Source: Olsenella uli
Lineage (GTDB): Bacteria; Actinomycetota; Coriobacteriia; Coriobacteriales; Atopobiaceae
Reading direction: 5' to 3'
Length of the DNA: 32,266 bases
Assembly (NCBI RefSeq): GCF_016900775.1
Contig: NZ_JACJKN010000022.1
Coordinates: 1 to 32,266 of the forward strand
Shown: one piece after another, positions 16,820 through 32,266 of the stretch
How positions within the stretch are numbered: the first letter of the stretch is position 1
Layout: each line of letters starts with the position of its first letter
Translations under genes and position numbers: made by a program
Notes under the pieces: model-generated
What the model was told of the DNA's origin: nothing
Databases searched by the model: none
Seen by the model: only the letters and a program-made list of their open reading frames with translations

Positions 16820-16821
16820 GA

Positions 16822-17385
16822 CTAGCCAATCTCCCTAAGCTCGTCACCGTTCTTCTCGTAGCGTCGCCCGCACGAGGGGCAGGTCAAGTCGTCGGACAGC
16901 ACGGCTCCGCATTCGCAGGCCCAGCCGACTTGGCGCGCCGGCACGCCAAGCATGAGTGCGTGGGCGGGGACGTCCGCGGTCACGACGGCGCCGGCGCCAA
17001 TCATTGCCCACTCCCCTATCTCATGCCCGCACACGATTGTGGCATTTGCCCCGATGGAGGCACCGGTGCGCACAAGTGTCCTGAGGTAGTTGGCCGCGCC
17101 CTTGGGGTACTTGGCACGCGGGGTGAGATCGTTTGTGAAGACGCAGGACGGCCCACAGAACACCCAGTCGCCAAGCTCCACGCCCTGATAGATGGAAACG
17201 TTGTTCTGAATCTTCACGCCATCGCCGATGGTGACATCGTTCGCAACGTTCACGTTCTGTCCAAGGCTGCAGCCCTCACCAACCCGCGCACCAGACTGGA
17301 TGTGGCAGAAATGCCACACCTTGGTGCCATCGCCGATGGTGGCCCCCTCGTCAATGACCGCCGTAGGGTGCACGAATGCAGCCAC
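16822..17385 (-). CDS. wbpD: Hexapeptide-repeat N-acetyltransferase, WbpD-like, with C-terminal zinc ribbon
   Basis: 187 residues from GTG 17385, whose first base overlaps the last base of the preceding TAG (TAGTG); GGGGGAG is the ribosome site. The N-terminal 140 residues form left-handed beta-helix hexads (for example VIDEGATIGDGTKVW, IGDGVKIQNNVSIY, IGANATIVCGHEIG), as in WbpD, which acetylates the 3-amino group of UDP-GlcNAc3NA with acetyl-CoA. VFTNDLTPRAKYP is the typical loop. The C-terminus adds CECGAV and CPSCGRRY, a four-Cys zinc ribbon seen in a subset of these enzymes. Its place between WbpB and WbpE supports the assignment. Confidence 0.88.
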   Translation of the reverse strand: MAAFVHPTAVIDEGATIGDGTKVWHFCHIQSGARVGEGCSLGQNVNVANDVTIGDGVKIQNNVSIYQGVELGDWVFCGPSCVFTNDLTPRAKYPKGAANYLRTLVRTGASIGANATIVCGHEIGEWAMIGAGAVVTADVPAHALMLGVPARQVGWACECGAVLSDDLTCPSCGRRYEKNGDELREIG

Positions 17386-18461
17386 TAGAACTCCCCCATC
17401 ATGTCAAGCGTCGAACAGTCCGTGAGCGGCAGCCTCACAGGCTTGCCCGTCCGCTGGCTCTGGTAGATTGCAAGCACCGCTTCGAGTGCCGCGCGGCCAG
17501 CATGGGCGTCCACATAGGGCGTCGTGTGCTTGGCGATGGCGTCGGCCATGTCGGCGAAGAGCGCCGTGTGGCCATTTCCATAGACGTTGGATGTGGCCTC
17601 CTTAAGGCCTTGGTTCTCGACGTCCCCTTTCTCCTCACTCGCGAAGTCCCAGACGTCAATGTTGTTCGTCGAGGTGCCGCCAATCTTGACAGTTCCGGTC
17701 TCGCCAAAGAGATAGAACGTCTCCTCGAGGTTCTTGGGGTAGACGTTGACCGTGCCCTCGACCGTGGCGACAGCGCCATTTGCAAAGGTGAGCACCGCCA
17801 CGCCCACGTCCTCTGCCTCAAGGTAGTCGTGGAAGCGCTGGCGCGTCTGGCCGTAGACCTCTACGAGCTCGTCGCCCATCATCCACCGCAGCAGGTCGAT
17901 GCCGTGAATGCACTGGTTCATGAGGCAGCCGCCGTCCTCAGCCCACGTGCCGCGCCACGGCGCCTGCTCGTAGTAGCTCTTGTTGCGATTCCAACGGACG
18001 TGGATAGAGCCGTGGGAGAGCCGGCCGAAGCGCCCCGCTTCGAGAGCCGCACGCGTCTTCTGGACGGCAACGTTGAAGCGGTTCTGGTGGCATGCCGAGA
18101 CGAGCACGCCGCGCTCCTCGGAGCGGCGGATGATCTCATCCGCGTCTGCCATGGACATGGCCATGGGCTTCTCGATGATGACGTTCACGCCAGCATCGAT
18201 GCAGTCGAGCGCGATGGCGGCGTGCTTGCCGCTTTCGGTGGCGATGGAGACGAGCTCGAGCTCAGGATGCTCTATGAGGAGCATGTGGTAGTCGGTGTAG
18301 CGCGCGATAGAAGCATCGCCCTCAAGTCCGTGCTTGGCAAGGACATCTTCCATCCGATCAGGGACGACGTCGCAGACTGCGACGATGTCGAATTCGTTGC
18401 GCACCGCAGCAGCGATATGATTGGTCGAGATGCGACCACAGCCAATAAGAGCGTACTTCAT
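17385..18461 (-). CDS. wbpB: Gfo/Idh/MocA-family NAD-dependent oxidoreductase, WbpB-like
   Basis: 358 residues. N-terminal Rossmann domain with IGCGRIS (~6-12) and the family's EKPMAMS (97-103); Lys98 is the usual catalytic or cofactor-contact residue. The C-terminal alpha/beta domain holds GGCLMNQCIHGIDLLRWMMG (His186 in the substrate region). WbpB oxidises C3 of UDP-GlcNAc-uronate to the 3-keto sugar, which WbpE then aminates. It begins directly at the WbpA stop (ATAAATG, zero gap) and its stop overlaps the acetyltransferase start by one base. Confidence 0.88.
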   Translation of the reverse strand: MKYALIGCGRISTNHIAAAVRNEFDIVAVCDVVPDRMEDVLAKHGLEGDASIARYTDYHMLLIEHPELELVSIATESGKHAAIALDCIDAGVNVIIEKPMAMSMADADEIIRRSEERGVLVSACHQNRFNVAVQKTRAALEAGRFGRLSHGSIHVRWNRNKSYYEQAPWRGTWAEDGGCLMNQCIHGIDLLRWMMGDELVEVYGQTRQRFHDYLEAEDVGVAVLTFANGAVATVEGTVNVYPKNLEETFYLFGETGTVKIGGTSTNNIDVWDFASEEKGDVENQGLKEATSNVYGNGHTALFADMADAIAKHTTPYVDAHAGRAALEAVLAIYQSQRTGKPVRLPLTDCSTLDMMGEF

Positions 18462-19781
18462 TTATAGCACCTCGATGTTGTCGCGCTTCTCGACAGCCTT
18501 CATGGCATTCTTGGTGTCGAAGACAACCTGAGCGTGAGCCTGCACCATGTCGTAGTCGACGTTGGTATGGGCACAAGTGACCATAACGAGATCGGCAGCC
18601 TCAAGAGCCTCAGGCGTCAGCTCGGGGATGGAAGCGCGCTCAACGCCCTTGAAGCGATAGCTGGACACCCACGGATCAAAGTAGGTGACGTTGGCGCCGC
18701 GCTTCTCAAGGCACTCAATCACGCGAAGAGCTGGACTCTCGCGGTAGTCATCGATGTCCTGCTTGTAGGCCACCCCCAGGACGAGCACGTTAGCGCCACA
18801 GATGGCCTTCTGCGAGCGGTCGGAGAGCAGGCGCTCGGCGCGCTCCACGCAGTACTCGGGCATGCGGTCGTTCACCATCATGGACGCCTCGATCATCGAG
18901 GTGTGGAAGCCGTACTCACGCGCCTTCCAGGAGAGATAGTAAGGATCGAGTGGGATGCAGTGACCACCGAGGCCAGGACCAGGATAGAACGCCGTGAAGC
19001 CGTAAGGCTTGGTCTTGGCAGCCTCGATGACCTCCCAAATGTCGATACCCATGCGGTCACAGAGCTGGGCGAGCTCGTTAACCAGGCCGATGTTCACGTT
19101 GCGGTAGGTGTTCTCGAGAATCTTCTCCATCTCGGCGACGGCCGGACTGGAGACGCGAGTCACGCCACCCTCAAGCACGGACTCGTAGACGCTGGCGATG
19201 AGGTCGAGCGCCTCCGCGCCGATAGCCCCCACCACCTTGGGCGTATTCTTGGTTTTATAGATGAGGTTGCCCGGATCGACGCGCTCGGGCGAAAAGCCCA
19301 GGTAGAACTCAGTTCCGCAGGTGAGGCCGGAGCCCTTTTCCAGGATTGGTCGAATGAGGTCCTCGGTGGTGCCGGGGTAGGTAGTAGACTCAAGGACCAC
19401 CATCACACCCTTCTTAAGGTAAGGGGCAATTTCGCGAGCCGAGCTCTCCATGTACGACGTATCCGGCTGCTGGTGAATATCCAGCGGCGTAGGAACGCAG
19501 ATGGCAACAAAGTCACACTCGGAGACGCGGGAGAAGTCAGTCGTAGCCTCGAGGCGGCCCTCGGTGACGAGCTCCGCCAAGTCCTCCTGCACAACATCGC
19601 CGATGTAGTTCTCGCCGGCGTTGACCTTGTCGACCTTCGCCTGCTGAACGTCAAAGCCAATGGTCCTGAAGCCCGCCTTGGCTTTCTCGACCGCTAGCGG
19701 CAGACCAACGTAACCAAGGCCAACCGTCCCGCACACCAGCGCGCGGCTCTCGATTGCCTGCCTAATCTCAGTGGTATTCAT
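18462..19781 (-). CDS. wbpA: UDP-N-acetylglucosamine 6-dehydrogenase, WbpA-like
   Basis: 439 residues, first gene of the wbp run, with GGGGAG seven nt before the ATG. Nucleotide-sugar dehydrogenase of three domains: NAD-binding GTVGLGYVGLPLA (~18-30), VPTPL (~97-101), central ETYRN-like ILENTYRNVNIGLVNE (~221-236), catalytic Cys275 in PGLGGHCIPLDPYYL, and the C-terminal VLGVAYKQDIDDYRESPA. It oxidises C6 of a UDP-HexNAc to the uronate in two NAD-dependent steps. The adjacent WbpB/D/E set makes the GlcNAc-type WbpA the best reading over WecC (ManNAc) or Ugd (glucose). Confidence 0.92.
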   Translation of the reverse strand: MNTTEIRQAIESRALVCGTVGLGYVGLPLAVEKAKAGFRTIGFDVQQAKVDKVNAGENYIGDVVQEDLAELVTEGRLEATTDFSRVSECDFVAICVPTPLDIHQQPDTSYMESSAREIAPYLKKGVMVVLESTTYPGTTEDLIRPILEKGSGLTCGTEFYLGFSPERVDPGNLIYKTKNTPKVVGAIGAEALDLIASVYESVLEGGVTRVSSPAVAEMEKILENTYRNVNIGLVNELAQLCDRMGIDIWEVIEAAKTKPYGFTAFYPGPGLGGHCIPLDPYYLSWKAREYGFHTSMIEASMMVNDRMPEYCVERAERLLSDRSQKAICGANVLVLGVAYKQDIDDYRESPALRVIECLEKRGANVTYFDPWVSSYRFKGVERASIPELTPEALEAADLVMVTCAHTNVDYDMVQAHAQVVFDTKNAMKAVEKRDNIEVL

Positions 19782-21454: not shown

Positions 21455-22156
21455 TTGCGCGCTCTCGTTATAATACCCGCATACAATGAGGAAGAGTCCA
21501 TCGTTTCCGTCGTCCAGAGCGTCAAAGCCGCGGGTTTTGACTACCTTGTCATTAATGATGGGTCGCGCGACCGTACGCTCGCGCTCTGCCACGAGCACGG
21601 CATCAACGTTTTGGATCTCCCGCGCAACCTGGGCATTGGCGGTGCCGTTCAGGCGGGTCATCTATACGCACGACAGCACGGCTATGACGTAGACGTCCAA
21701 TTTGATGGGGACGGGCAGCACGACGCCCGCTATGTCGGCGCCCTGGTTGAGAGGGTGTCCAAAGGCGCGGACCTCGTTATCGGATCGCGCTATCTCGAGA
21801 AGACCGAGGGGTTTCAGTCCACCGCCCTCAGACGCGTTGGAATCAAATGGCTCTCTTGGTGGATAGGGCTGTTCTGCAGAAAAGTCGTTACCGATCCGAC
21901 GTCCGGCTTCAGGGCCTGCGGCAGGCGCGCAATCGACCTTTTTTGCGAGAACTACCCGGTCGACTACCCCGAGCCCGAGTCCATCGTGACCGCGATGAAG
22001 CGTGGGCTTGCGATAGACGAGGTTCCAGTTGTCATGCACGAGCGACAGGGAGGCACCTCATCGATCTCCGCGCTCTCGAGCGTCTATTACATGGTTAAGG
22101 TGACGCTTGCCATCGTCATCTCGGCCCTTACCAGCACACCACGCCACAAAGGATAG
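21455..22156 (+). CDS. GT2-family glycosyltransferase, DPM1/GtrB-like
   Basis: 233 residues from TTG 21455, with AAGGG about 6 nt upstream. GT-A motifs are complete: LVIIPAYNEEESI (~4-16), LVINDGSRD (~31-39), NLGIGGAVQAG (~58-68) and VDVQFDGDGQHD with the metal-binding DxD (~80-91), then DLVIGSRY. This subclass transfers a sugar to a polyprenyl phosphate or adds a branch from the cytoplasmic side. A terminal hydrophobic stretch (VYYMVKVTLAIVISAL) may attach it to the membrane. The DUF2304 gene follows 10 nt later; the two families are regularly paired in surface-glycan loci. Confidence 0.9.
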   Translation: MRALVIIPAYNEEESIVSVVQSVKAAGFDYLVINDGSRDRTLALCHEHGINVLDLPRNLGIGGAVQAGHLYARQHGYDVDVQFDGDGQHDARYVGALVERVSKGADLVIGSRYLEKTEGFQSTALRRVGIKWLSWWIGLFCRKVVTDPTSGFRACGRRAIDLFCENYPVDYPEPESIVTAMKRGLAIDEVPVVMHERQGGTSSISALSSVYYMVKVTLAIVISALTSTPRHKG

Positions 22157-22166
22157 AGGTGGCTTC

Positions 22167-22544
22167 ATGAACATGCTCTACAACATTATCTTTCCGCTGC
22201 TCTGCCTTGCCTTCATGGCGTATGTGCTCAGACTCGTCTCGAAGGGGCGTCTCACCCTCAAGTACTCCCTGCTCTGGCTTGTCCTCTCCGTCGCCATGCT
22301 TCTCATCTGTCTTTTCAGCAAGCAAGTAGGCGACTTCACCTACCTTCTGGGCTTCAAGGTCTTCTCCAACTTCGTCTTTGTTGCCGGGCTGTGCTTTCTC
22401 CTCATCATCACGCTTGCCCTCAGCTCCATCGTGAGCAAGCAGGCCAGCGCGATTAAGACACTCACCCAGCGTCTTGCCCTCGCCGAAAAGCAGATTGAGG
22501 AGCTGCGTGAGTCATCCTCCGCCTCGGATACCCCGTCGATATGA
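22167..22544 (+). CDS. DUF2304 small membrane protein
   Basis: 125 residues. ATG 22167 is preferred (GAGGTGG five nt upstream); a longer frame to 22107 overlaps the previous gene. Three hydrophobic segments occupy ~3-20, ~33-50 and ~65-90, with the conserved KGRLTLKYSLLWL motif between the first two. A charged coiled-coil-like tail (QRLALAEKQIEELRE) ends the protein. DUF2304 proteins accompany DPM1-like GT2 enzymes and probably hold them or their lipid sugar at the membrane; the exact role is not established. A perfect hairpin starts right at the stop codon. Confidence 0.85.
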   Translation: MNMLYNIIFPLLCLAFMAYVLRLVSKGRLTLKYSLLWLVLSVAMLLICLFSKQVGDFTYLLGFKVFSNFVFVAGLCFLLIITLALSSIVSKQASAIKTLTQRLALAEKQIEELRESSSASDTPSI

Positions 22545-22582
22545 GAGCTGCCCTGAACGCGATAGGGCGTTCAGGGCAGCTC
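22545..22582. terminator. Bidirectional hairpin terminator between convergent genes
   Basis: GAGCTGCCCTGAACGC (22545-22560) and GCGTTCAGGGCAGCTC (22567-22582) are perfect 16-bp arms around a 6-nt loop. It begins at the base after the DUF2304 stop and lies 31 nt beyond the stop of the convergent CotH gene. No T-run flanks it. Confidence 0.75.
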
Positions 22583-22613: not shown

Positions 22614-25600
22614 TTATGCAGACCATCCGTTGGCAGAAAGCCAGTCAAGTCGAGCGATGAGCCAGTTTCTGAAGTACTCGACGTTCTCTCGATACGTCGG
22701 ATACGGGTCATTGCAGTTGTGGAATGACGTCAGACCCCAAAGCACCTCATTCATCGCCTGGGAAGCGCCCACCTCGTTTACCAGCGAGTCCAAGCCTCCC
22801 GACGGCCGTACCAGATCCTCGATCAACGGAGTAAGGATGCTGACAAACTCCCTCTTGGTCAGCTCCTGCACCTGAGAAGAAGCGGTAAACCAATTCCCAA
22901 TGACAAACCACTTAGGATTGGGGAATTCCGGGTTCTCGTTTCTGATGCCGAAAGAGGCATCGAAATCCCAGACGGGGCCACCGTAGAAGATCTGCTTCAC
23001 GCCATTCTCAGCGTCAGCAGAACCAGGCAGGTAGTAGTAGGCAGAGGAGGTCGTAAAGTCAACGTTCTTGGCGAACTCATTCATCAAGTACAGCTTGGAG
23101 AGGGACTCCACGTCAGCATACTCATCAAGTGACTTCCCCGTGCTGGGGTTGACGCCCCCGTTTCCGGCAGCATCAATTGCCTCCTGCATCAGCTCGCTGA
23201 TATAGAGCATCTGAGCATAGGAGAGATTCCCGGGCTCCTTGACCACGAAGGCACCCACCGACGTCATGAACCAGCATCGCTCTGACTTGTAATACGCCGT
23301 GTCGAACTCGGTGAGGTATCCCCCGGAGATATCTGCGGGATTCTTGACCCCGACCACATATTGGAACGTCTGGCCGTACTTGTTTATCGCCTGAGCAGTC
23401 GGAAGCTCGTCAAGATCGACGTCGGGATTTGCCTCCTCGATATCGTCCTCGAGCTTGTGGATGTCGACCCTGCCCCCGTTAATCTCAACCTTCTCGCTCA
23501 GCAGATAGCTCCCCCGGTATTCGCCGTCATAATAGAGGTCGATGGGCGCACACTCAGGCGTGAAATCGAGACCGAGCTTTTGGGCAAGCTGATACGCGAC
23601 AGTGCTGTGAAGCAGGGTGGCGTCATTCGCGTTGGCAAGGAGCACCCAGGTCTTTGCCTCGTTATCCTCATCTCCCGTCTCAAGCAGGTCGGTCTTCTTA
23701 TCGAGCTTGATCTGGTAGGGCTTCTTGTTGCTCGCGCTCCAGGTCGTGTTTCCCCTTCCCTTGATCTGACTCAGCTCCCCGTTATAGACAACCGAGCCGT
23801 CGGGATTAACGAGGAGCATGTGCCCCTTTGCCTTTGCCGAGTGATCGGGGCTGCCATCGACAAACGGGCGTCCCTCGTTGGCGGGGTCCTCGCTGACCAG
23901 ATACATGGCGCGCACGTTGGCGGACATCATGATTGCGAGCGTCCTCGTACGAGCTCCGGAGGACGTTTTGAACGAAATGGTCCTGACCCCATCACGCAAC
24001 GCGAGGCTCGTCAAATCAAAGGAGGATCCGCTCTCTATTCTCTTGAAGTCGCCGCCGTTTATCGAGAAGAGCAGGCTGGAAGAGCCCGCAAAGTCCTCGA
24101 ATGAAAGCACGACGTCACCCAAGTTGGCATGCGCAGGCAGGAAGAGATACGGGGTGTCGCCAACAAAGGTCGCAACAACTCGCGCCTTCTCGTCCTCCCC
24201 CACCGACGCGGCGAAGGTGGGAACGAGCATGCCGTCATTGTCAGCATGCCACGTGGTCGCACCCTCCACGCGCGTCCCGCGAAGCACGTAGCCAACGCGC
24301 CCAAGGCCCAGATAGCTCTCGGACCCCACGGAGAATAGCCCCGCACGGCATGCGTGGGTCTTCTCGTCGATGTAATAGCGCTGCAGCTCGCCGCCATCGT
24401 ACGCCCCGGTGATGAGCCACCCCGGATTCTCGAGGCGGCCATCGTTGTCCGCAAGATAGACGAGACCGGTCTCCGGGTCCTCCCAGCGCCCGCGAACGAC
24501 ATAGCCCCTCTGGGTGCCGAACGCCCACCATCCGCACTCATCCTCACTGATGAGCCCGGTGACGACCTTAGACCCAGAGAACCAGTAGCGCTGGAGACCG
24601 TCGCCAAAGGAATCCGTGACGAGCCAGCCCTCCGTCTTGATGATTCCCTCGTTGTCCGCAAACACGCGGTCGGCGCCAAAGACCCTGCCTCCGCGCAGGA
24701 CATAGCCTTGGTCGGGCATCCCGTAGAACTGAAGGCCATCAATCGTGAAGAAGCCGGTCTTTGCGCGAAGCGAACCGTCCTCCTGCCGCTCAAGCCAATA
24801 CCTCTGGAGGTTGCCCCCATCATAGGCTCCGGTCACAACCCACCCTGCGGTCTGCTCGAGCAAGCCATCGTTATTGGCGAGAAGGACGGTATCGCCCTCT
24901 GCCAGCTTGCCTCGCAGCACGTAGCCGTAACGCGTGACGTAATGATCCCAGCCATCTCCTGAATAGCCAGGCTGACAGGCATGGGAGGCGGCGTTGACGT
25001 AGTAGCGCTGGAGGCCATCGCCATACTCATCGGTAACGACCCAGCCGGGAGATTCGAGCACGCCGTCGTTGTTCGCAAGATACACATACCCCGTATTGGG
25101 GTCCGTGTACTTGCCCCTCACCACATAGCCCTCTGGGCGGGCATACGCCCACCATCCATCCGATGCCTTGATGAGCTCGGACGTCACGACCTTGCCAGAC
25201 TCAATCCAATACCGCTGCAGCCCCTGCCCAAAGCCATCGGTGACGAGCCAGCCAGACTGCTGGACGTTTCCGTCGTTGTCTGCCCACACCATGCCGTCGG
25301 CCGTCACCGTACCGCTTCTCAGCGTGGTGCCGTCCTCCTTGGTGTAGTGCGTCCCGTCATCGGACCATCCCACCACTGCCCCGTGGAGATCCGGATCTAT
25401 GTAGTAGCGCTCTAGGGCTCCCCCGGTGAACTCACCCGTGACGTTCCATCCAGGCGAAAGGAGCTTCCCGTCGTTGTCTGCGAAGTAGATGACGTCCCCT
25501 GCAACATAGCGGCCGCGCACCACATAGCCCTCGGGACGCGCATAGGCCCAATATCCATCCAGCGTGTCAATGAGGAGATTTCTTACGAGAGTGCCGTCCG

Positions 25601-26207
25601 CGCCGAGCCAATAGCGCTGAAGGCCCTGCCCGGCCGCCTCGGGAAAGGCGTCGCTGACAACCCAGCCGTTGGAGACCTTCTTTCCGTCCTGATAATAGGA
25701 CCATCCGCCGTCTTCCTGAGCCCAGCCGTCAGAGAGGGCCGCCTCCGCTTCAGCCTCCACGGGGGCAATGACCCCCTCATCGCCGAGCCCGGAAACTTCT
25801 TCGAGGCTATCATCGGGAGCGACCGAGGACTCGTCATCCGCCATCCCGCCCGGGGCGTCCTCCAAGGGCGATTCCACCTCACTGGGCGACGAGGCATCGG
25901 ACGATGTCAGATCGCCCGATGCCTCATCCTCCCCAAGCACATAAGTCGGGTCGTCCTCGGCAATCGGCACATCGCTGGACTCATCATCAGTCATCTCGGC
26001 CGCATCCGAGTCGGTCGCAACGGCATCATCAGAGTCGTGGGTCACACCTTGGTCGGCAAGAGCTTCCATGCCGCCGGGCATCTCGGCATTAGCCAACGTC
26101 TCTGCATACATATCTTCCGCGTGTGCGACGCCCGGAACAAGCAGAGCGAGGCCAAGCGAGGCCAGGCAGGCAGCTCGGGCAATACGGGGGGAATTCATGC
26201 TATCCAT
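22614..26207 (-). CDS. Secreted CotH-kinase protein with seven cell-wall-binding repeats
   Basis: 1,197 residues. Signal peptide (MDSMNSPRIARAACLASLGLA start, cleavage near AHA, ~30); acidic Asp/Ser/Glu-rich linker (~35-155); seven GW-like repeats of ~68 residues (~178-665); a small beta region (~670-765); then a CotH domain (~765-1190). CotH motifs seen: QIKGRGNTTW with KKPYQIKL (~811-828), WVLLANANDATLL (~850), YRGSYLLSEKVEI (~895) and the metal-binding-like VWDFDASFG (~1078). CotH family members are atypical protein kinases, known from spore-coat CotH, and also occur on extracellular proteins. Here the protein would be exported and wall-bound. GAGGT sits six nt before ATG 26207; the start overlaps the aminotransferase stop by 8 nt, so the genes are coupled. 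The substrate is unknown. Confidence 0.88.
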   Translation of the reverse strand: MDSMNSPRIARAACLASLGLALLVPGVAHAEDMYAETLANAEMPGGMEALADQGVTHDSDDAVATDSDAAEMTDDESSDVPIAEDDPTYVLGEDEASGDLTSSDASSPSEVESPLEDAPGGMADDESSVAPDDSLEEVSGLGDEGVIAPVEAEAEAALSDGWAQEDGGWSYYQDGKKVSNGWVVSDAFPEAAGQGLQRYWLGADGTLVRNLLIDTLDGYWAYARPEGYVVRGRYVAGDVIYFADNDGKLLSPGWNVTGEFTGGALERYYIDPDLHGAVVGWSDDGTHYTKEDGTTLRSGTVTADGMVWADNDGNVQQSGWLVTDGFGQGLQRYWIESGKVVTSELIKASDGWWAYARPEGYVVRGKYTDPNTGYVYLANNDGVLESPGWVVTDEYGDGLQRYYVNAASHACQPGYSGDGWDHYVTRYGYVLRGKLAEGDTVLLANNDGLLEQTAGWVVTGAYDGGNLQRYWLERQEDGSLRAKTGFFTIDGLQFYGMPDQGYVLRGGRVFGADRVFADNEGIIKTEGWLVTDSFGDGLQRYWFSGSKVVTGLISEDECGWWAFGTQRGYVVRGRWEDPETGLVYLADNDGRLENPGWLITGAYDGGELQRYYIDEKTHACRAGLFSVGSESYLGLGRVGYVLRGTRVEGATTWHADNDGMLVPTFAASVGEDEKARVVATFVGDTPYLFLPAHANLGDVVLSFEDFAGSSSLLFSINGGDFKRIESGSSFDLTSLALRDGVRTISFKTSSGARTRTLAIMMSANVRAMYLVSEDPANEGRPFVDGSPDHSAKAKGHMLLVNPDGSVVYNGELSQIKGRGNTTWSASNKKPYQIKLDKKTDLLETGDEDNEAKTWVLLANANDATLLHSTVAYQLAQKLGLDFTPECAPIDLYYDGEYRGSYLLSEKVEINGGRVDIHKLEDDIEEANPDVDLDELPTAQAINKYGQTFQYVVGVKNPADISGGYLTEFDTAYYKSERCWFMTSVGAFVVKEPGNLSYAQMLYISELMQEAIDAAGNGGVNPSTGKSLDEYADVESLSKLYLMNEFAKNVDFTTSSAYYYLPGSADAENGVKQIFYGGPVWDFDASFGIRNENPEFPNPKWFVIGNWFTASSQVQELTKREFVSILTPLIEDLVRPSGGLDSLVNEVGASQAMNEVLWGLTSFHNCNDPYPTYRENVEYFRNWLIARLDWLSANGWSA
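24215..25668 (-). repeat. Seven tandem cell-wall-binding-type repeats in the CotH protein
   Basis: Each unit of about 68 codons follows the order GW-x-VTD-x-FG, LQRYW/YYI, a variable loop, then GYVLRG or GYVVRG, and ADNDG at the end. Units alternate in type: a WWAYARPEGYVVRG form (units 1, 3 and 6, the last a variant) and a form with HACQ- or HGAV-like loops (2, 4, 7). The same repeat family fills the visible N-terminal side of the L,D-transpeptidase at the right edge. Confidence 0.85.
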
Positions 26208-27330
26208 AGAATGACCTCACAGCCTTGATGACGGCGTCTCTGTCCCCTTCTCTCAACCCGTAGTACATAGGCAACCGCACCAAGCGGTCGCTCTCCCTCG
26301 TGGTGTAGACGTCCTCCCCGTGGAACCTGCCGAACTTGAGGCCGGCCGGGGAGCTGTGCAGCGGCACGTAGTGGAAGACCGCCATGACGCCATGCTGCTT
26401 GAGGTACTCGATGAAGGCCGTGCGCTCCTCGAGGTCCCTCACCTTGAGGTAGAACATGTGGGCGTTGTGCACGCATCCCTCGGGCACCACGGGAAGCTCG
26501 ACCCTCCCCGCCTCAGCGAGCGGCGTAAAGGCCTCGTAATAGGCGTGCCATGTGGCAAGGCGGTCGTCGTTGATCTCGTCCGCCCTCTCGAGCTGAGCCC
26601 AGAGATAGGCGGCGTTGAGGTCGCTCTGGAGGTAGGAGCTGCCGCGGTCGACCCACGTGTACTTGTCCACCTGGCCGAGCTTGAAGAGGGACCGGTTGGT
26701 TCCCTTCTCACGGATGATCTCCGCGCGCTCGATGTAGGCGGGGTCGTTGATGACGAGGGCGCCGCCCTCCCCCATCGAGTAGTTCTTGGTCTCGTGGAAG
26801 GAGTAGCAGCCGAAGGCGCCGATGGTCCCCAGGGCACGCCCCTTGTACGTGCTCATGACACCCTGGGCGGCGTCCTCGACCACGATGAGCCCATGCCTGC
26901 GGGCGATGCGGACGATCTCGTCCATCTCGCAGGCGACGCCGGCATAGTGCACAGGCACGATGACGCGGGTGCGCTCCGTGATGGCATCCTCGATCTTGGT
27001 CTCATCAATGTTCATGGTATCCGGTCGGATGTCCACGAAGACGAGCGTGGCACCCATCGCCTGAAAGGCCGTAGCCGTGGAGGAGAAGGTGAAGCTCGGG
27101 AGAATCACCTCGTCGCCGGGCTTGAGGTCGCAGAGCACGGCGGCCATCTCAAGCGCCGCGGTGCCGCTCGTGGTGAGCAGGACCTTCTCCGCCCCGAAAC
27201 GCTCCTCCATCCAGGCGTGGCACTTGCGGGAGAAGGGGCCGTCACCGCAGATCTTGTGGTTCTTCTCGGCGGCCTCGCGAACGTAGTCCATCTCGGTGCC
27301 CACGTAGGGCGGGACGTTGAAGTCAATCAT
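26200..27330 (-). CDS. wecE: Sugar aminotransferase, WecE/RffA-like
   Basis: 376 residues from ATG 27330, with GAGGAG seven nt upstream. The longer frame to 27408 lies inside the preceding gene. PLP fold type I: TTSGTAALEMAA (~53-64), VEDAAQG with Asp153, and the Schiff-base Lys182 in SFHETKNYSMGEGGAL, the strong RffA/WecE signature. WecE converts dTDP-4-keto-6-deoxyglucose to dTDP-4-amino-4,6-dideoxygalactose with glutamate as donor. No dTDP-glucose pyrophosphorylase or 4,6-dehydratase is in the window, so the substrate must come from elsewhere. The start is one base after the ATP-grasp stop (TGACATG) and the end overlaps the CotH gene. Confidence 0.87.
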   Translation of the reverse strand: MIDFNVPPYVGTEMDYVREAAEKNHKICGDGPFSRKCHAWMEERFGAEKVLLTTSGTAALEMAAVLCDLKPGDEVILPSFTFSSTATAFQAMGATLVFVDIRPDTMNIDETKIEDAITERTRVIVPVHYAGVACEMDEIVRIARRHGLIVVEDAAQGVMSTYKGRALGTIGAFGCYSFHETKNYSMGEGGALVINDPAYIERAEIIREKGTNRSLFKLGQVDKYTWVDRGSSYLQSDLNAAYLWAQLERADEINDDRLATWHAYYEAFTPLAEAGRVELPVVPEGCVHNAHMFYLKVRDLEERTAFIEYLKQHGVMAVFHYVPLHSSPAGLKFGRFHGEDVYTTRESDRLVRLPMYYGLREGDRDAVIKAVRSFYG

Positions 27331-27331
27331 G

Positions 27332-28609
27332 TCATCTCTCCTCTTCGGAGGCGATCTCATATGCCATGCGCTCATTATGAAGCAGGAGGGAGGCGCCGTC
27401 CCCGTCACGCACGGAGAACGTGGCGTTGATCTTGTCGGTCAGCTCGTCGAGCTCCCGGCGTGACTCGGCAGCAAGATAGGTCCGCATCACGTAGGGCTGG
27501 GCACCGTGTCGGATGTCCTCCCCAACCGAATAGTACACAAGCGTATCGACTACACGATGGTCCATCTCCGGAGATGGAACGCCCTCGATAGAGGCAATCC
27601 TTCCTTCCCTCCCGTGGAAGAAGAGGCCGCACGCCACCCTATCAAGATGCGGATCGTGCCCCGCCAGCCTCTCCCTCAGACGCTCGGGCTCGTAGACGGT
27701 GTCGATGAGGAGGTCCTCGACGGTAAGCCTGCCATAGGTGGCATACTCGAGCATCTCGTGCTCGGTCCCAAAGACGCGGCCGGCGCACTCGCACACCTGG
27801 ATGTCCCGCCCGGGCTTCCAGAAGAACTGCATGCAGAGCGGGCCGTTCTCAAGGCCGACGTAGCGCGCGACGCGGCCAGCTATGTCACGGGCGACGTCGA
27901 TGACAGCATCTATGAGGAGGCTGGGGTAGACGATCCTGCTCACGTGGGGGATGGCAAACGGGACGTCATGGGTCTTCTCTCGATCCGCGATCTCGAGCAC
28001 GACAGGCTCGCCATCGACGACCCAGCTCATCATGTTGAGCTCATAGCCGTCGTTGTACTCCTCCACGATGATGCTGTCGGCGTCGGAGTAGCCCGCCACC
28101 TCATCGAACCGCTCGATGACCTGATCTGGGGTGTCCAGCAGACAGACGCCGCGGGAACCCCAGCCGTTGAGAGGCTTGGTCACCACGGGGAAGGAGAGCG
28201 TCGACAAATCCTCGCGGATGCTCTGACGCCGCACGACGGCCGTCCTCGGGTAGGGCACTCCCAGCTCGTCGAACATGGCCTTCATGCGCGTCTTATCTCG
28301 CAGGATGGTGAGGCGTGCCGAGGGAAGATAGAACGGCAGTCCCGCCCTCTCTGCGATGGCAGACGCCTGCTCGGCGAGGTTGTCGGAGAACGCCGTGATG
28401 ATGCCGTCGGCGCCCGTCCTGCGGCAGGCCTCGGCGACGGCGTCATGGTCGTAGACGCTCACGTCGCAGCGCTCGTCTGCGAGCGCCTTGGCGGGGCCGT
28501 CAGGATAGCCGTCGCAGGCGACGGTGGCAATCCCCCGCTCGCGAGCGCGCTCGACCAGCGGGGAGAACTCGGACGTCGAGCCGAGGATGAGCAGCTTGTG
28601 TTGGGACAA
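27332..28609 (-). CDS. ATP-grasp ligase (carbamoyl-phosphate-synthase-like), second of two
   Basis: 425 residues from TTG 28609, with GGGAGG seven nt upstream. N-terminal pre-ATP-grasp Rossmann part: KLLILGSTSEFSPLVERA (~5-22), then DGIITAFSDNLAEQASAIAE (~68-87). The ATP-grasp domain holds RDKTRMKAMFDELGVPYP (~107-124), VVTKPLNGWGSRGV (~146-159, nucleotide-binding loop), VEEYNDGYELN (~184-194) and a metal-site-like QVCECAGRV (~275). A C-terminal extension of about 110 residues contains RIASIEGVPSPEM, as in biotin-carboxylase-like ligases. These enzymes join a carboxylate, through an acyl-phosphate, to an amine or other nucleophile. The substrates are unknown; neighbours suggest an amino sugar or amino acid. 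Confidence 0.82.
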   Translation of the reverse strand: MSQHKLLILGSTSEFSPLVERARERGIATVACDGYPDGPAKALADERCDVSVYDHDAVAEACRRTGADGIITAFSDNLAEQASAIAERAGLPFYLPSARLTILRDKTRMKAMFDELGVPYPRTAVVRRQSIREDLSTLSFPVVTKPLNGWGSRGVCLLDTPDQVIERFDEVAGYSDADSIIVEEYNDGYELNMMSWVVDGEPVVLEIADREKTHDVPFAIPHVSRIVYPSLLIDAVIDVARDIAGRVARYVGLENGPLCMQFFWKPGRDIQVCECAGRVFGTEHEMLEYATYGRLTVEDLLIDTVYEPERLRERLAGHDPHLDRVACGLFFHGREGRIASIEGVPSPEMDHRVVDTLVYYSVGEDIRHGAQPYVMRTYLAAESRRELDELTDKINATFSVRDGDGASLLLHNERMAYEIASEEER

Positions 28610-28630
28610 CGTCCTACCTCCCGGTCTTCC

Positions 28631-29989
28631 CTACTCCTCGGCGGGAACGCCCTCTGCCGCGTTGAACTTTCTCACGCCGAACATCTTCCAGCTTAGCAGC
28701 AGGAACACAATGGCGAGCAGCGTGATGACGATTCCGGCCGGCAACCCCCACCCGGCGAGCAGGAGGGTCGGCGTGAGCGCCACGAGCAGCGCGTCCACGA
28801 TGGTGAAGAACAGCCAGACCAGGCCAAAGTCACCGAGCGCCCCGGTCCTGAACTCGGGGTCGGAGACGCGGAGCAGCAGGACGCCCGTGGCGAGGACGCC
28901 CGTGCACTGGCCGAAGATGAAGAGGCCTCGCTCGTACCAGCAGTTCCTGAGAAAGTGGCCCGCGATGACGAAGTGGAAGAAGAACACGCAGGCAAAGCCG
29001 AGCACGGCGAGCACGGCGATGGGGACCGCGTACTTCATGACGACGTTGATGCTGATGGAGGCGACGCCGAAGGCCACGAGGTAGTCCGTAGTGCAGCTGC
29101 AGATGTGCGTGATGGGGCGCTTGTCCACGTAGACGTCCAGCTTGAGCGCGCGCAGCACGGCCTGAAGCATGATGCCGCAGATGATGGCGATCCCGTACGT
29201 GGGGAAGGCGATCTGCGGGAGCACGATAGAGAGCCCATGGTTGATGAGGTAGGCAAGGCCCGTCGTCGCGAGGACGAGCGCGCCGTGCCACGTGAGCGAG
29301 TCCATGGAGATGGAGTTGACCGTGTCGTCTCCGAGCGACTCGCGCTTCTCAGGCGGGTTGAGGCCGACGCGCATCTCCTCGGGGAGCTCCTCGACCTTCT
29401 TGAGGACGCGCGTGTAGCCCTTCCTCGTGCCGAGGTTGACGAGGGCGACGCCAAAGACGATGCCGCCGAGCAGGCCGATGGTCGCAAACGCCTGGCCGAT
29501 GCTCGTCGCCTCGTCCCAGCCGTGCTCGGCAAAGACGCCGCCCATGGCCGCTGCGGTGCCGTGACCGCCCGCGAAGCCCGCCGGCAGCATGAGGCCGAAG
29601 GACTCGTTGATGCCCGGGAAGATGAGCGGGAGCACGAGCACTCCGATGAGGATGAAGATGCCGAACTGCGCGATCTCCGCGGCGCCGTTCACGAAGAACG
29701 AGTCGCCCGCCTTCTTGACCATGGACCCAAAGGAGACCTTGCGACGCTCCCCGAGGAACATCGTGCCAAAGACCACGGAGATGAGCACGCCCGCATAGTC
29801 CGATATGGCAGAGGAGAACGGCAGGACGTTCAGGAACTGGTGGCCGAGGAAGAGGCCGAGGAATCCGGCGATGAGCGGCGCGGGGATGTAGAGGTTCTGG
29901 AAGAGCCTCACCCTCGTGCGGACGACATGCGACACGAGAAGCAGGCCGGACATGATGCAGAAGTCGAGCAGGAAGTCTGTGACGGTCAC
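28631..29989 (-). CDS. gltS: Sodium/glutamate symporter family transporter (GltS/ESS)
   Basis: 452 residues from GTG 29989, with AGGGA five nt upstream, 8 nt after the ATP-grasp stop. About ten to twelve hydrophobic segments; the reentrant-loop signature GFAGGHGTAAAMGGVF (~148-163) is that of GltS, followed by GQAFATIGLLGGIVFGVAL. A hydrophilic central loop (~185-225) separates two halves and a second GQCTGVLATGVLLLR motif (~365-380) is the mirror of the first, as expected of this inverted-repeat fold. The family moves glutamate with sodium. Placement between two ATP-grasp ligases and before a glutamate-using aminotransferase suggests that it supplies an amino acid to the pathway, but another amino acid or acid is possible. 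Confidence 0.85.
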   Translation of the reverse strand: MTVTDFLLDFCIMSGLLLVSHVVRTRVRLFQNLYIPAPLIAGFLGLFLGHQFLNVLPFSSAISDYAGVLISVVFGTMFLGERRKVSFGSMVKKAGDSFFVNGAAEIAQFGIFILIGVLVLPLIFPGINESFGLMLPAGFAGGHGTAAAMGGVFAEHGWDEATSIGQAFATIGLLGGIVFGVALVNLGTRKGYTRVLKKVEELPEEMRVGLNPPEKRESLGDDTVNSISMDSLTWHGALVLATTGLAYLINHGLSIVLPQIAFPTYGIAIICGIMLQAVLRALKLDVYVDKRPITHICSCTTDYLVAFGVASISINVVMKYAVPIAVLAVLGFACVFFFHFVIAGHFLRNCWYERGLFIFGQCTGVLATGVLLLRVSDPEFRTGALGDFGLVWLFFTIVDALLVALTPTLLLAGWGLPAGIVITLLAIVFLLLSWKMFGVRKFNAAEGVPAEE

Positions 29990-29997
29990 GGCAGTCC

Positions 29998-30978
29998 CTA
30001 GTCCTCGAAGATCTTGGTGATGTACTCCTCGTACTTGCGGGCGATGATCATCTGGTGGCGGTAGGTGTAGTCCTCGATGTCACGGCCCTGGAAGCAGCGG
30101 AGGTGGTTGTCGATGAGCTCGTAGCCGCTCATGACGGTGAACTCGGCGCCCGCCGAGAAGCGCGGATTGCACTCGACGAAGTGGTACGTGCCCTCGGCGT
30201 CGAGAATCCACTCGAAGTTCACGCTGCCGCGGATGTCAAGCGCCTCGGCGAGCTCGCGGCTGCGCGCCTCGAGATCCTCGTCGTGATACATTCGCACGGT
30301 GATGGCGCAGAAGTTGCTCGTCTCGAGAAGCTCCTCGCGCACCACGACGACGGTCTTGCCGCTCTCGGGGTTGCGCACGATCTCAGACATGACGATGGGG
30401 CCTTCGACGAAGGGCTGGACGATGTAGCGCTCCGGCTCCTCGATGGCGGCCATGGCGGCCGCCCAGTCATACTCGTTGTAGATGCGATAGAGGCCGATGC
30501 TGCTGCGCCCGTCGTACGGCTTCACGATGACGGGGTAGCCGAACGGCGTGCCGCCCTGGCACTCGGTCAGGCTGAGCGTGGTGATGGTCTTGATCTGGGG
30601 GCAGCGCTCGTTGATGAACTCCGCGAGCGTCTTCTTGTTGCGGATGGTGTCGAGCGCGCTCTTGGGCGACATGCAGAAGGTGGCGCCCGTCTTGGCGAGG
30701 CGGTCGCGGTTGGCGTTGAAGACGTCAATGTCGAGGTCCGTCATGGGAAAGACGAAGTCGACGTGTTCGCGCGCGCAGACGTCCTCGATGAAGGTGAGGT
30801 AGTTCTCGACATCCATCGTATAGGGGGCCTGATAGAAGGCGCCGACCTCAAGGGCGTCGGGGACGTACTCCCTTGGATAGATGTCGGTCCCCACCACGCG
30901 GTGATTGAGGCGCTTGAGGGTCTTTATGGTGATGTCGCCCGCGACGGAGCCGAGCGAGGTGACGAGAACGGTAGACAT
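29998..30978 (-). CDS. ATP-grasp ligase (carbamoyl-phosphate-synthase-like), first gene of the operon
   Basis: 326 residues from ATG 30978, with a perfect AGGAGG 11 nt upstream. N-terminal STVLVTSLGSVAGDITIKTLKR (~2-23) and FVFPMTDLDIDVFNANRDRLA (~75-95) form the pre-ATP-grasp region. The ATP-grasp domain carries KSALDTIRNKKTLAEFI (~106-122), YPVIVKPYDGRSSIGLYRI (~149-167), YIVQPFVEGPIVMSEIV (~185-200) and the metal-binding EWILDAEGTYHFVECNPRFSAGAEF (~253-277), where E and N-P-R are the expected ligands. It is about 100 residues shorter at the C-terminus than the other ATP-grasp protein and clearly a different subfamily. The substrate is unknown. Confidence 0.83.
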   Translation of the reverse strand: MSTVLVTSLGSVAGDITIKTLKRLNHRVVGTDIYPREYVPDALEVGAFYQAPYTMDVENYLTFIEDVCAREHVDFVFPMTDLDIDVFNANRDRLAKTGATFCMSPKSALDTIRNKKTLAEFINERCPQIKTITTLSLTECQGGTPFGYPVIVKPYDGRSSIGLYRIYNEYDWAAAMAAIEEPERYIVQPFVEGPIVMSEIVRNPESGKTVVVVREELLETSNFCAITVRMYHDEDLEARSRELAEALDIRGSVNFEWILDAEGTYHFVECNPRFSAGAEFTVMSGYELIDNHLRCFQGRDIEDYTYRHQMIIARKYEEYITKIFED

Positions 30979-31038
30979 GCGCTGAAAGACCTCCTGAATA
31001 GTTTTCTGCTGACCCAGATAGTTTAATACAGGCTGAAA

Positions 31039-31069
31039 CGCGGCGTCCGAGAGTCGCTCGGACGCCGCG
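31039..31069 (-). terminator. Intrinsic-type terminator of the L,D-transpeptidase gene
   Basis: CGCGGCGTCCGAG (31039-31051) and CTCGGACGCCGCG (31057-31069) are perfect 13-bp arms with a 5-nt loop. On the minus strand the stem is followed by TTTCAGCCTG, a modest T-tract. It separates the transpeptidase transcript from the ATP-grasp operon starting 60 bp later. Confidence 0.75.
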
Positions 31070-31091
31070 CGAAGGTCTGGATGAAGCTAGG

Positions 31092-32266
31092 CTAGACGGT
31101 CACGACCTTGGTGCCATAACCGGCGTTGTAGTAAATCCACTTGGCGTTTTCCTCGAGTAGGCGAATGCACCCATGGGAGATCTTCTTGCCAATCTGGTTG
31201 GGGTCGCTGTACCCGCCATCCCAGCCAATGGTGGAGTGGAAGCCAAGATCAAGGCAGAAGTTGGTGTACCACTTGATGTCATCCTTGGCAAAGTAGGTCG
31301 TCTGCCACGTATAAGGATCGCCCCACTCGGAGAAGTCCGGGTCATCCGTCCAGTTGCAATAGGAGTTGTCGCCGCCAATGGTCCACTCGCCGCGAATGGT
31401 CCCCTGGCCGTTGTTGTACTGGGGAAGGCCAACGCCGCAGAGCCAGTCGAAGATGGGGGTCCAGTTGCCCGCACTCCCCTGGAAGACAACCGTGTGGCAG
31501 TTCTCACAGTCGACGGCAATCAGATACTGCGTGGCGCTCGAGACGTTCTTGATGCGGTTCCAAAGATTGATGGCAACCTGCGAGAGCGGTATGGTCGTCA
31601 GAACGCCGTCGCTGTCCCCGTAATACGCCTTGCCAGAGGGAGCGATATAGAGGCCGATGACAACATAGCCCTCATCCTCACGGCCATAGTAATCATTGCC
31701 ACCGAGAGTAAAGAAGCCGATTCGCGCGCCCATAAGGCCGTCGCCAGGAGCGGTGTCAATCCGATAGCGCTGCAGCACGCCATCGTAGATGTCGGTAACG
31801 AGCCAGCCTTCGGTCCAGGCCAGCACGCCGTCGTTGTCTGCGAGCAGCATTCCGTTTCCGTAGCGAAGCTTGCCACGCAGAATCTGGCCCGTATCAGGAG
31901 AGCCGTAGTAGTGGCGCCCTCCGTACTCGATGTGCCCAGACTTGGTGTAGAGGTGGCCATCGGATGCCCTCACGAGGTAATACCTCTCAAGGGAGCCCTC
32001 AAAGGCGTCGGTGACGACCATTCCTGCCGTGTACTTGCCCTCGGCAAGGCACCCATCGTCATCAGCAAGCAGGAAGCCGTTGGAAGTCTTCATCTTCCCG
32101 CGCAGGACGTAGCCGTTCGAGGTGGTGTAGTGCGCCCAGCCGTCGTTGGAGAAGCCCACGACCGCCGCGTGCTTCCCGGCGTTGATCCAGTAGCGCTGCA
32201 GGCCCTGGCCGAAGTCGTCGGAGACGACCCAGCCGCCCGCGGCGCCGCCGGCGAGGTTGCCGTCAT
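31092..32266 (-). CDS. L,D-transpeptidase (YkuD) with cell-wall-binding repeats, 5' end off the window
   Basis: The open frame runs from the right edge to TAG at 31092-31094 (about 391 codons visible). Three repeats like those of the CotH protein (GWVVSDDFGQGLQRYWI and so on, ending ADDDG, ADNDG or GDSDG) are followed by a YkuD domain of about 130 residues starting ATQYLIAVDCENCHTVVF. The catalytic motif ISHGCIRL is near the end, with its Cys codon at 31167-31169. YkuD enzymes crosslink peptidoglycan stems between two meso-DAP or attach proteins to the wall; they are extracytoplasmic. The signal peptide would lie beyond the edge. The repeats may hold the enzyme on the wall. A strong hairpin follows the gene. 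Confidence 0.9.
   Translation of the reverse strand, partial: DGNLAGGAAGGWVVSDDFGQGLQRYWINAGKHAAVVGFSNDGWAHYTTSNGYVLRGKMKTSNGFLLADDDGCLAEGKYTAGMVVTDAFEGSLERYYLVRASDGHLYTKSGHIEYGGRHYYGSPDTGQILRGKLRYGNGMLLADNDGVLAWTEGWLVTDIYDGVLQRYRIDTAPGDGLMGARIGFFTLGGNDYYGREDEGYVVIGLYIAPSGKAYYGDSDGVLTTIPLSQVAINLWNRIKNVSSATQYLIAVDCENCHTVVFQGSAGNWTPIFDWLCGVGLPQYNNGQGTIRGEWTIGGDNSYCNWTDDPDFSEWGDPYTWQTTYFAKDDIKWYTNFCLDLGFHSTIGWDGGYSDPNQIGKKISHGCIRLLEENAKWIYYNAGYGTKVVTV
31600..32266 (-). repeat. Three tandem cell-wall-binding-type repeats in the L,D-transpeptidase
   Basis: Units of about 68 codons with GW/GM-x-VTD, LQRY or LERY, a loop (HAAV in unit 1), GYVLRG-like and DNDG ends match the units of the CotH protein at 24215-25668. 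More units may lie to the right of the window. Confidence 0.8.

Follow-up and report, generated by a model that had tools for sequence, protein, structure and literature searches.

In dozens of related genomes the sugar transaminase WecE is encoded next to an ATP-grasp ligase, and this suggests a decoration pathway that is widespread and undescribed. One local form of this wider WecE-ATP-grasp pathway is a five-gene operon of Olsenella uli, a Gram-positive member of the class Coriobacteriia. The operon lies in C15, a contig from a draft genome of 2.48 Mb; this contig, analysed over its whole length of 32,266 nt, is called the window here. Its five genes all lie on the minus strand and span positions 30978 to 22614 in the list of open reading frames (ORFs), in the order ATP-grasp ligase 1, GltS-like transporter, ATP-grasp ligase 2 (grasp2), WecE and CotH. 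We consider it probable, though only modestly so, that this operon encodes the cytoplasmic first stage of a lipid-linked sugar decoration resembling the Arn pathway, with an ATP-grasp ligase acylating dTDP-4-amino-4,6-dideoxygalactose (dTDP-Fuc4N; dTDP, deoxythymidine diphosphate).

The identity of WecE (26200..27330, minus strand) is the firmest of the five. The protein exceeds both curated cut-offs (624 bits against 434.85 for TIGR02379 and 632 bits against 375 for NF008687), matches PF01041, and aligns at 582 bits with the solved TDP-4-keto-6-deoxy-D-glucose transaminase 4piw. These scores point unambiguously to a dTDP-Fuc4N transaminase, the assignment already made in an earlier sequence-only reading of this DNA. 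The grasp2 protein (27332..28609, minus strand) matches PF13535 (ATP-grasp_4) at 36.1 bits against a gathering score of 27. Among solved proteins it is closest in sequence to 4dim and to the L-amino-acid ligase BL00235 (3vot), the latter with a profile match of 3.6e-14 over positions 68-370, and residues K106, K145, E183, Q261, E274 and R278 are invariant over nine orthologues. ATP-grasp 1 (29998..30978, minus strand) matches PF02655 at 34.8 bits against a gathering score of 23.2 and also PF15632. It is PRK12767-like, at 120.8 bits under a cut-off of 218, with an ATPgrasp_Ter region and a PylC-like N-domain, and K115, K153, E256, E269, N271 and R273 are invariant over four orthologues. We take the conserved Lys, Glu and Arg residues of both proteins to be ATP and metal ligands, from general knowledge of the fold. 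Judged by Pfam score and conserved residues, both would be ligases of the carboxylate-amine kind. A role in defence was left without support, as a PADLOC search returned nothing for either ligase or for CotH.

The recurrence of WecE with an ATP-grasp gene was measured in samples of 140 genomes of the family and 296 of the class, and grasp2 was also searched for in 396 genomes of the phylum. Within the family, TIGR02379 was matched above its cut-off in 43 genomes, at 46 places. Of these 46 places, 40 have a grasp2-family gene within 10 kb and 37 have one within 3 kb, counting the listed grasp2 matches down to about 1e-10 and excluding weaker rows; a repeat of the tally with our own profiles again gave 40 of 46. 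Grasp2-family matches were found in 41 of the 43 family genomes with WecE, compared with 11 of the 97 without it. At the level of the class, WecE occurs in 49 genomes, of which 25 (26 places, all fetched) fall outside the family, and 20 of those 26 loci hold a grasp2-family gene. The partnership of WecE with an ATP-grasp ligase is thus conserved inside the family and beyond it. The fetched spans reached about 20 kb at most, and less where a contig ended early, so the locus tallies are lower bounds; their score thresholds were set by eye.

The association was also counted from the ligase side. The 140 family genomes contain nine close grasp2 orthologues (at least 50% identity). In eight cases WecE is no more than 2 kb away; in the ninth (G132) the distance is 27 kb. 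Close orthologues defined by our own profile (at least 400 bits) were present in 20 fetched loci, accompanied by WecE within 10 kb in 17, a GT2 glycosyltransferase gene in 14, a pair of SMR genes in 13, a LysA-like decarboxylase in 10, RmlB in 10, YfhO in 10, RmlA in 9, ATP-grasp 1 in 6, GltS in 5 and CotH in 2. Most of these 20 loci were chosen through a WecE, grasp2 or GltS match, so their WecE and GltS figures are biased upward; the unbiased counts are eight of nine for grasp2 with WecE and five of five for GltS with grasp2. At the close-grasp2 loci without WecE in the span, WecE lies 9 kb off in G305, 27 kb off in G132 and on another contig in G304. In the phylum sample grasp2 was matched in six genomes at 1e-40, the four strong matches (above 500 bits) all falling within the same order. 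Searches of viral contigs gave no match, those of phages gave two weak partial matches, and those of plasmids gave 65 records, all below 60% identity (24.5-29.4% among the best 20 of the 65).

Several side observations concern the ligase genes and their neighbours. The LysA-like decarboxylase, a pyridoxal-phosphate enzyme, was seen near grasp2 at L014, L015, L019, L063, L075, L076, L081, L084, L111 and L112, in some cases together with an epimerase-like gene. The acyl donor may be produced or shortened by this decarboxylase. At 14 of the 46 family WecE loci (among them L032, L033, L038, L039, L047, L050 and L051) the ATP-grasp searches found three genes, which might mean that more than one acyl group is attached or that there is a choice between them. 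Some of the extra genes relate to an L017 protein that matches PF14397, annotated as "sugar-transfer associated". One grasp2 orthologue match (G205:C1:1643735-1645000, in L063) contains a single internal TGA, with a 777-aa open frame.

The ligases could instead act on a sugar acid and join its carboxylate to an amino compound, as in capsules of the amidated-glucuronic-acid type, with WecE belonging merely to the same glycan locus. The window offers material for such a route. On the minus strand at 15695-19781 it holds, in a row, genes for a DegT aminotransferase, a NeuD-like hexapeptide acyltransferase, a Gfo/Idh oxidoreductase and a nucleotide-sugar dehydrogenase (TIGR03026, 435 bits). This row resembles the WbpE/D/B/A-type route and would yield a diamino-uronic acid. 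A capsule with amidated glucuronic acid is named in PMC11800379. Set against this, an ATP-grasp gene accompanies WecE in 60 of the 72 fetched loci and is scarce in family genomes that lack WecE, and compact loci such as L014, L015 and L084 hold RmlA, RmlB, WecE and ATP-grasp together, although sugar-acid dehydrogenases were not searched for there. We judge the sugar-acid account unlikely and continue to favour acylation of Fuc4N.

The five-gene order itself, which the sequence-only reading had treated as a set, is not a fixed one: the exact order was not found elsewhere in the family and class genomes searched. The nearest relative found, Thermophilibacter provencensis (G091; Atopobiaceae, Coriobacteriia; same genus), has a grasp2 that is 89% identical and keeps four of the genes. 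Its order is L,D-transpeptidase, grasp1, GltS, grasp2 and WecE, as in the window, and its CotH gene lies 26 kb away from WecE. CotH and ATP-grasp 1 are optional members.

The GltS-like gene (28631..29989, minus strand) encodes a putative sodium/carboxylate symporter of a divergent subfamily, with 55.4 bits to PF03616 against a gathering score of 26; no solved relative was found by sequence search at E values up to 1. In the family sample it was matched at 1e-20 in the source genome and T. provencensis only. The class sample gave 12 matches at 1e-15, five of them close (at least 46% identity) and seven at 30-33%, all seven from a single family (f12). For the five close homologues the distances to a close grasp2 orthologue are 0, 1, 875, 4050 and 4039 bp; all three genomes of a second family that have a close homologue are among them. 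The sequence-only reading, which had placed the transporter in one operon with the ligases, is supported on this point. In G304 and G305 a single strand carries, in this order, RmlB, grasp2, SMR1, SMR2, GT2, epimerase-like, LysA-like and GltS genes. Around six distant homologues (all but that of G231, which was not fetched) none of the 16 other gene families searched for was seen. NCBIfam listed no family at 1e-6 for the homologue at L111, and in G323 the GltS-like gene (L086:3896-5372, plus strand) is split over two overlapping frames by a frameshift or an assembly error. The proximity in five of five cases is our best evidence that transporter and ligase may work together, and hence the imported carboxylate is a likely ligase substrate. 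That this carboxylate would be glutamate follows from the family name only.

ATP-grasp 1 is rarer. Eight family genomes have it: in five the gene is no more than 3 kb from WecE, and in a sixth, G132, it stands beside grasp2; the remaining two, G048 and G129, have it near neither WecE (above 400 bits) nor a close grasp2. It also occurs in seven of the class genomes, including G292, where grasp2, WecE and ATP-grasp 1 are united, and G293, G327 and G339, where it lies among other glycan genes with no WecE above 400 bits in the fetched span.

CotH (22614..26207, minus strand) is the least certain member of the group. The protein has a signal-peptide-like start, repeats and a C-terminal CotH kinase domain (PF08757, 83.4 bits against a gathering score of 23.8, covering profile positions 1-321 of 322 at residues 815-1189); WDFD and other residues are invariant in four homologues. 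No Pfam model matched the residues before 815, and a sequence search at E values up to 0.01 gave no solved relative. Six copies of an LQRYW/Y motif lie between residues 196 and 608, and repeats of this kind also occur in the neighbouring L,D-transpeptidase. The description of this protein as a wall-bound CotH kinase therefore holds for its PF08757 domain, and its "wall-bound" part rests on the signal-peptide-like start and the LQRYW/Y repeats. CotH was found in 42 of the 140 family genomes at 1e-8. In the 20 genomes that have both CotH and WecE, the two lie within 30 kb of each other in six and within 4 kb in two, where random placement would give about 0.5 genomes within 30 kb (20 genomes, each with a 60-kb target in 2.5 Mb). 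One of the two closest cases, G084, has a DUF2142 gene between CotH and WecE. The N-terminal parts of the CotH proteins near such loci differ, being SLH in G084 and DUF5648 in G044, with no Pfam match in the source genome or G091. As a surface protein, CotH favours such loci.

These uneven distributions bear on the possibility that the operon is simply a variable glycan locus, in which WecE and grasp2 cooperate while local recombination has merely carried along GltS, ATP-grasp 1 and CotH, which would share no pathway with them, an idea that is compatible with Fuc4N acylation. It would fit the restriction of the five-gene set to the source genome, the placement of CotH within 4 kb of WecE in just two genomes, and the rarity of ATP-grasp 1 (8 of 140), with two of its genomes lacking a WecE above the cut-off. 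Against it, GltS reappears with grasp2 in a second family, ATP-grasp 1 stays close to WecE or grasp2 in six of eight genomes and in the G292 run, and CotH exceeds its random expectation. We regard the passenger account as improbable.

The sequence-only reading had named rmlA and rmlB as genes to look for in the same genome, and both are present. RmlB is found above its cut-off in two copies, and contig C14 carries rmlA, rmlB, SMR1, SMR2, a PgfS-like GT2 gene and a YfhO gene, as well as a putative RmlC-RmlD-like fusion. The C14 GT2 scores 160 bits to ArnC, under the cut-off of 529. In T. provencensis the matches to C14 and to the window fall at 1584.5-1599.6 kb and 1606.9-1612.5 kb, so the two contigs are probably neighbours. 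On whether the C14 SMR and GT2 genes serve Fuc4N, a tree of 55 GT2 sequences points both ways. The C14 protein clusters with those of G091, G084, G044 and G132, where WecE lies apart, and also with L069; farther off are L034, L045 and L047, and these last four loci have it beside WecE. Another candidate for loading Fuc4N onto a lipid is the pair that lies next to CotH on the plus strand, consisting of a PpgS-like GT2 gene (21455..22156; PF00535; NF058614 at 93 bits, under a cut-off of 370) and an adjoining gene for a DUF2304 membrane protein (22107..22544; PF10066 at 74 bits).

Genes of these kinds recur around WecE. An ATP-grasp gene is the constant partner of WecE over the 72 loci; an ArnC/PgfS-like GT2 (48 loci), YfhO (45) and an ArnE/F-like SMR pair (35) are each present in about half to two thirds, and most loci lack RmlA and RmlB. 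The 46 family loci contain GT2 in 27, both SMR genes in 17, YfhO in 28, RmlB in 10 and RmlA in 8; the corresponding counts for the 26 other loci are 21, 18, 17, 11 and 10. L014, L015 and L084 are compact RmlA-RmlB-WecE-GT2-grasp2-SMR-SMR runs. At L017, taken as an example, GT2 matches ArnC best (162 bits, cut-off 529) and then PgfS (142 bits), both below the cut-offs. SMR1 there matches ArnE best (32 bits, cut-off 92) and ArnF at 23 bits (cut-off 99), ArnE ranks second for SMR2, and YfhO reaches 188.7 bits to PF09586 against a gathering score of 28.5. At L013 a DUF2142 protein scores 136 bits, above its gathering score. The recurrence of GT2, the SMR pair and YfhO or DUF2142 beside WecE and grasp2 suggests lipid-linked export. 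The sequence-only reading had recognised the WecE and ATP-grasp core and overlooked these recurring genes.

Fuc4N might also be a residue of a polymer backbone, made by a Wzx/Wzy route resembling that of the enterobacterial common antigen, and not a lipid-phosphate-linked decoration. The window does contain a Wzx-type flippase gene (14418-15788) together with GT2 and GT1 glycosyltransferase genes, and the operon is without an SMR pair or a PgfS-like GT2. What speaks for decoration is that an ATP-grasp gene, GT2, the SMR pair and YfhO or DUF2142 are united at 12 of the 46 family WecE loci and 15 of the 26 others. The backbone route is in our view an unlikely alternative.

The proposed pathway of decoration would begin with RmlA and RmlB, encoded elsewhere in the genome, making dTDP-4-keto-6-deoxyglucose, which WecE would convert to dTDP-Fuc4N with a free 4-amino group. 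Grasp2 would then activate a carboxylate, most likely that of an amino acid, and join it to this amino group, with the GltS-like symporter bringing in the carboxylate (glutamate or a relative). Grasp2 would in this way fill the position held by the formyltransferase ArnA for Ara4N and by the acetyltransferase WecD for Fuc4N. In genomes possessing it, ATP-grasp 1 may attach a second group, in line with the two successive ligations suggested by the sequence-only reading. A polyprenyl-phosphate glycosyltransferase would put the acylated sugar on a carrier lipid, the SMR pair (on C14 here) or a DUF2304 protein would assist its crossing of the membrane, and a YfhO or DUF2142 membrane glycosyltransferase would join it to a wall glycan. 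CotH would be a secreted surface kinase that acts on the decorated layer. What has been observed is the gene content, the conserved partnership, the conserved catalytic residues and the presence of RmlA and RmlB; the reactions of the ligases, the acyl group, the carrier route, the acceptor and the target of CotH are deduced. The order of N-acylation, lipid loading, flipping and transfer is inferred from gene content only, and for this strain the carrier route is the weaker proposal compared with the acylation step. A still broader version, in which the whole class Coriobacteriia displays amino acids on its surface by means of a Fuc4N handle, one or two ATP-grasps that build an aminoacyl or short peptidyl group on it, a dedicated GltS-like carrier, SMR, YfhO or DUF2142, and phosphorylation by CotH, all acting jointly, seems to us very doubtful.

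A number of results weigh against Fuc4N acylation and the decoration built on it. No grasp2-family gene was found in the fetched span at six of the 46 family WecE loci and six of the 26 others, although G305, tallied as without a ligase, has one 9 kb from WecE. The broad tally consists mostly of distant ATP-grasps, which score 55-130 bits to our own profiles and may use other substrates, and the genomes all come from one class and are not independent data. The SMR pair is absent from 29, and GT2 from 19, of the 46 family loci. The operon itself has no transferase gene, and the SMR and GT2 genes of C14 stand in an rmlA-rmlB-rmlCD run of the dTDP-rhamnose kind and so may serve another sugar. Structures predicted for the two ligases from two-sequence alignments had mean predicted local distance difference test (pLDDT) values of 37.9 and 44.1, and NCBIfam gave no family for the GltS-like protein at E 0.01. 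Finally, we know of no characterised enzyme of the grasp2 clade, so the acylation of Fuc4N by grasp2 is drawn from the gene partnership only.

The layout of the operon agrees with what was read from the letters. The genes are tightly packed on one strand, with junctions of 8 nt (ATP-grasp 1 and GltS), 21 nt (GltS and grasp2, containing a GGGAGGTAGG site) and 1 nt (grasp2 and WecE), and an overlap of 8 nt between WecE and CotH. Although the WecE frame is open from a start at 27408, the sequence favours the ATG at 27330, one base past the grasp2 stop (27334-27332), giving WecE at 27330-26200. A single AGGAGG ribosome-binding site (30990..30995, minus strand) precedes the first ATG, that of ATP-grasp 1, by 11 nt. 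Two strong hairpins flank the operon. The upstream one has a 14-bp stem (31038..31070, minus strand; -29.5 kcal/mol, z -4.8) and is the likely end of the L,D-transpeptidase transcript; the other has a 16-bp stem (22545..22582; -38.5 kcal/mol, z -5.2) and lies between the convergent CotH and DUF2304 genes. None of 200 shuffles was equally stable in either case. Neither hairpin has a classical T-run and a terminator scan of the sequence listed neither, so both are graded as likely terminators only.

The gene content around the operon also bears out the surface-glycan neighbourhood that had been proposed. Upstream, the L,D-transpeptidase gene (YkuD; 31092..32266, minus strand), with the same repeat class as CotH, adjoins the operon and its frame runs off the contig; such a gene also adjoins grasp1 in G091 (L012) and grasp2 in G132 (L018). 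A further gene at 2321-3385 on the plus strand encodes a protein with a Listeria-Bacteroides repeat above cut-off; its match to an LPXTG anchor is weak and narrowly misses the cut-off.

The sequence-only reading knew of no described system with this content, and our literature search, which covered subscription journals thinly, likewise found no paper uniting these parts. It returned nothing linking ATP-grasp with Fuc4N and O-antigen, nothing on Coriobacteriia with ATP-grasp and glycan, and nothing joining CotH kinase, polysaccharide biosynthesis and glycosyltransferase. To our knowledge the surface chemistry of Coriobacteriia is little studied. If our proposal is right, the pair of WecE and ATP-grasp marks acylated amino sugars on the cells of many Coriobacteriia, and this could affect the charge of the surface, recognition by the immune system, attachment of phages and resistance to cationic peptides. 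There would also be a specific enzyme whose activity can be assayed, and the GltS-like and CotH proteins would for the first time be placed in a functional context.

The closest known systems share parts of this scheme. The Arn pathway (ArnB, ArnA, ArnC, ArnD, ArnE/F and ArnT) places aminoarabinose (Ara4N) onto lipid A, and its ArnA formyltransferase formylates the Ara4N amine. Like the proposed pathway, it has a 4-amino sugar made by a DegT/DnrJ transaminase, N-acylation, loading onto undecaprenyl phosphate by a GT2, flipping by SMR proteins and an outer GT-C transferase. The proposed pathway differs in its use of dTDP-Fuc4N, an ATP-grasp acyl step and a YfhO/DUF2142-like transferase, and its scores are far under the ArnC and ArnE cut-offs. 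In the WecE-WecD-WecF route to the enterobacterial common antigen, WecE also makes dTDP-Fuc4N, but the sugar is there N-acetylated by WecD, whereas here an ATP-grasp ligase is the partner of WecE. BL00235 (3vot) and other ATP-grasp carboxylate-amine ligases belong to the same sequence family as grasp2, which is distant from them in sequence and has a sugar transaminase as its genomic partner. The three-component CsbB-GtcA-YfhO system, as described in PMC8035078, glycosylates teichoic acids with N-acetylglucosamine, glucose or galactose by means of a GtrA-family flippase. It resembles the proposed pathway in combining a GT2, a small membrane flippase and YfhO for the decoration of a wall polymer outside a Gram-positive cell. 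It is unlike it in that an SMR pair is found here (GtrA-type proteins were not searched for) and the sugar would be a 4-amino-6-deoxy sugar carrying an acyl group. The main text of that review mentions none of SMR, ArnE, EmrE and ATP-grasp. Each part of the proposed pathway is therefore of a known family, and its logic is that of Arn and CsbB-GtcA-YfhO.

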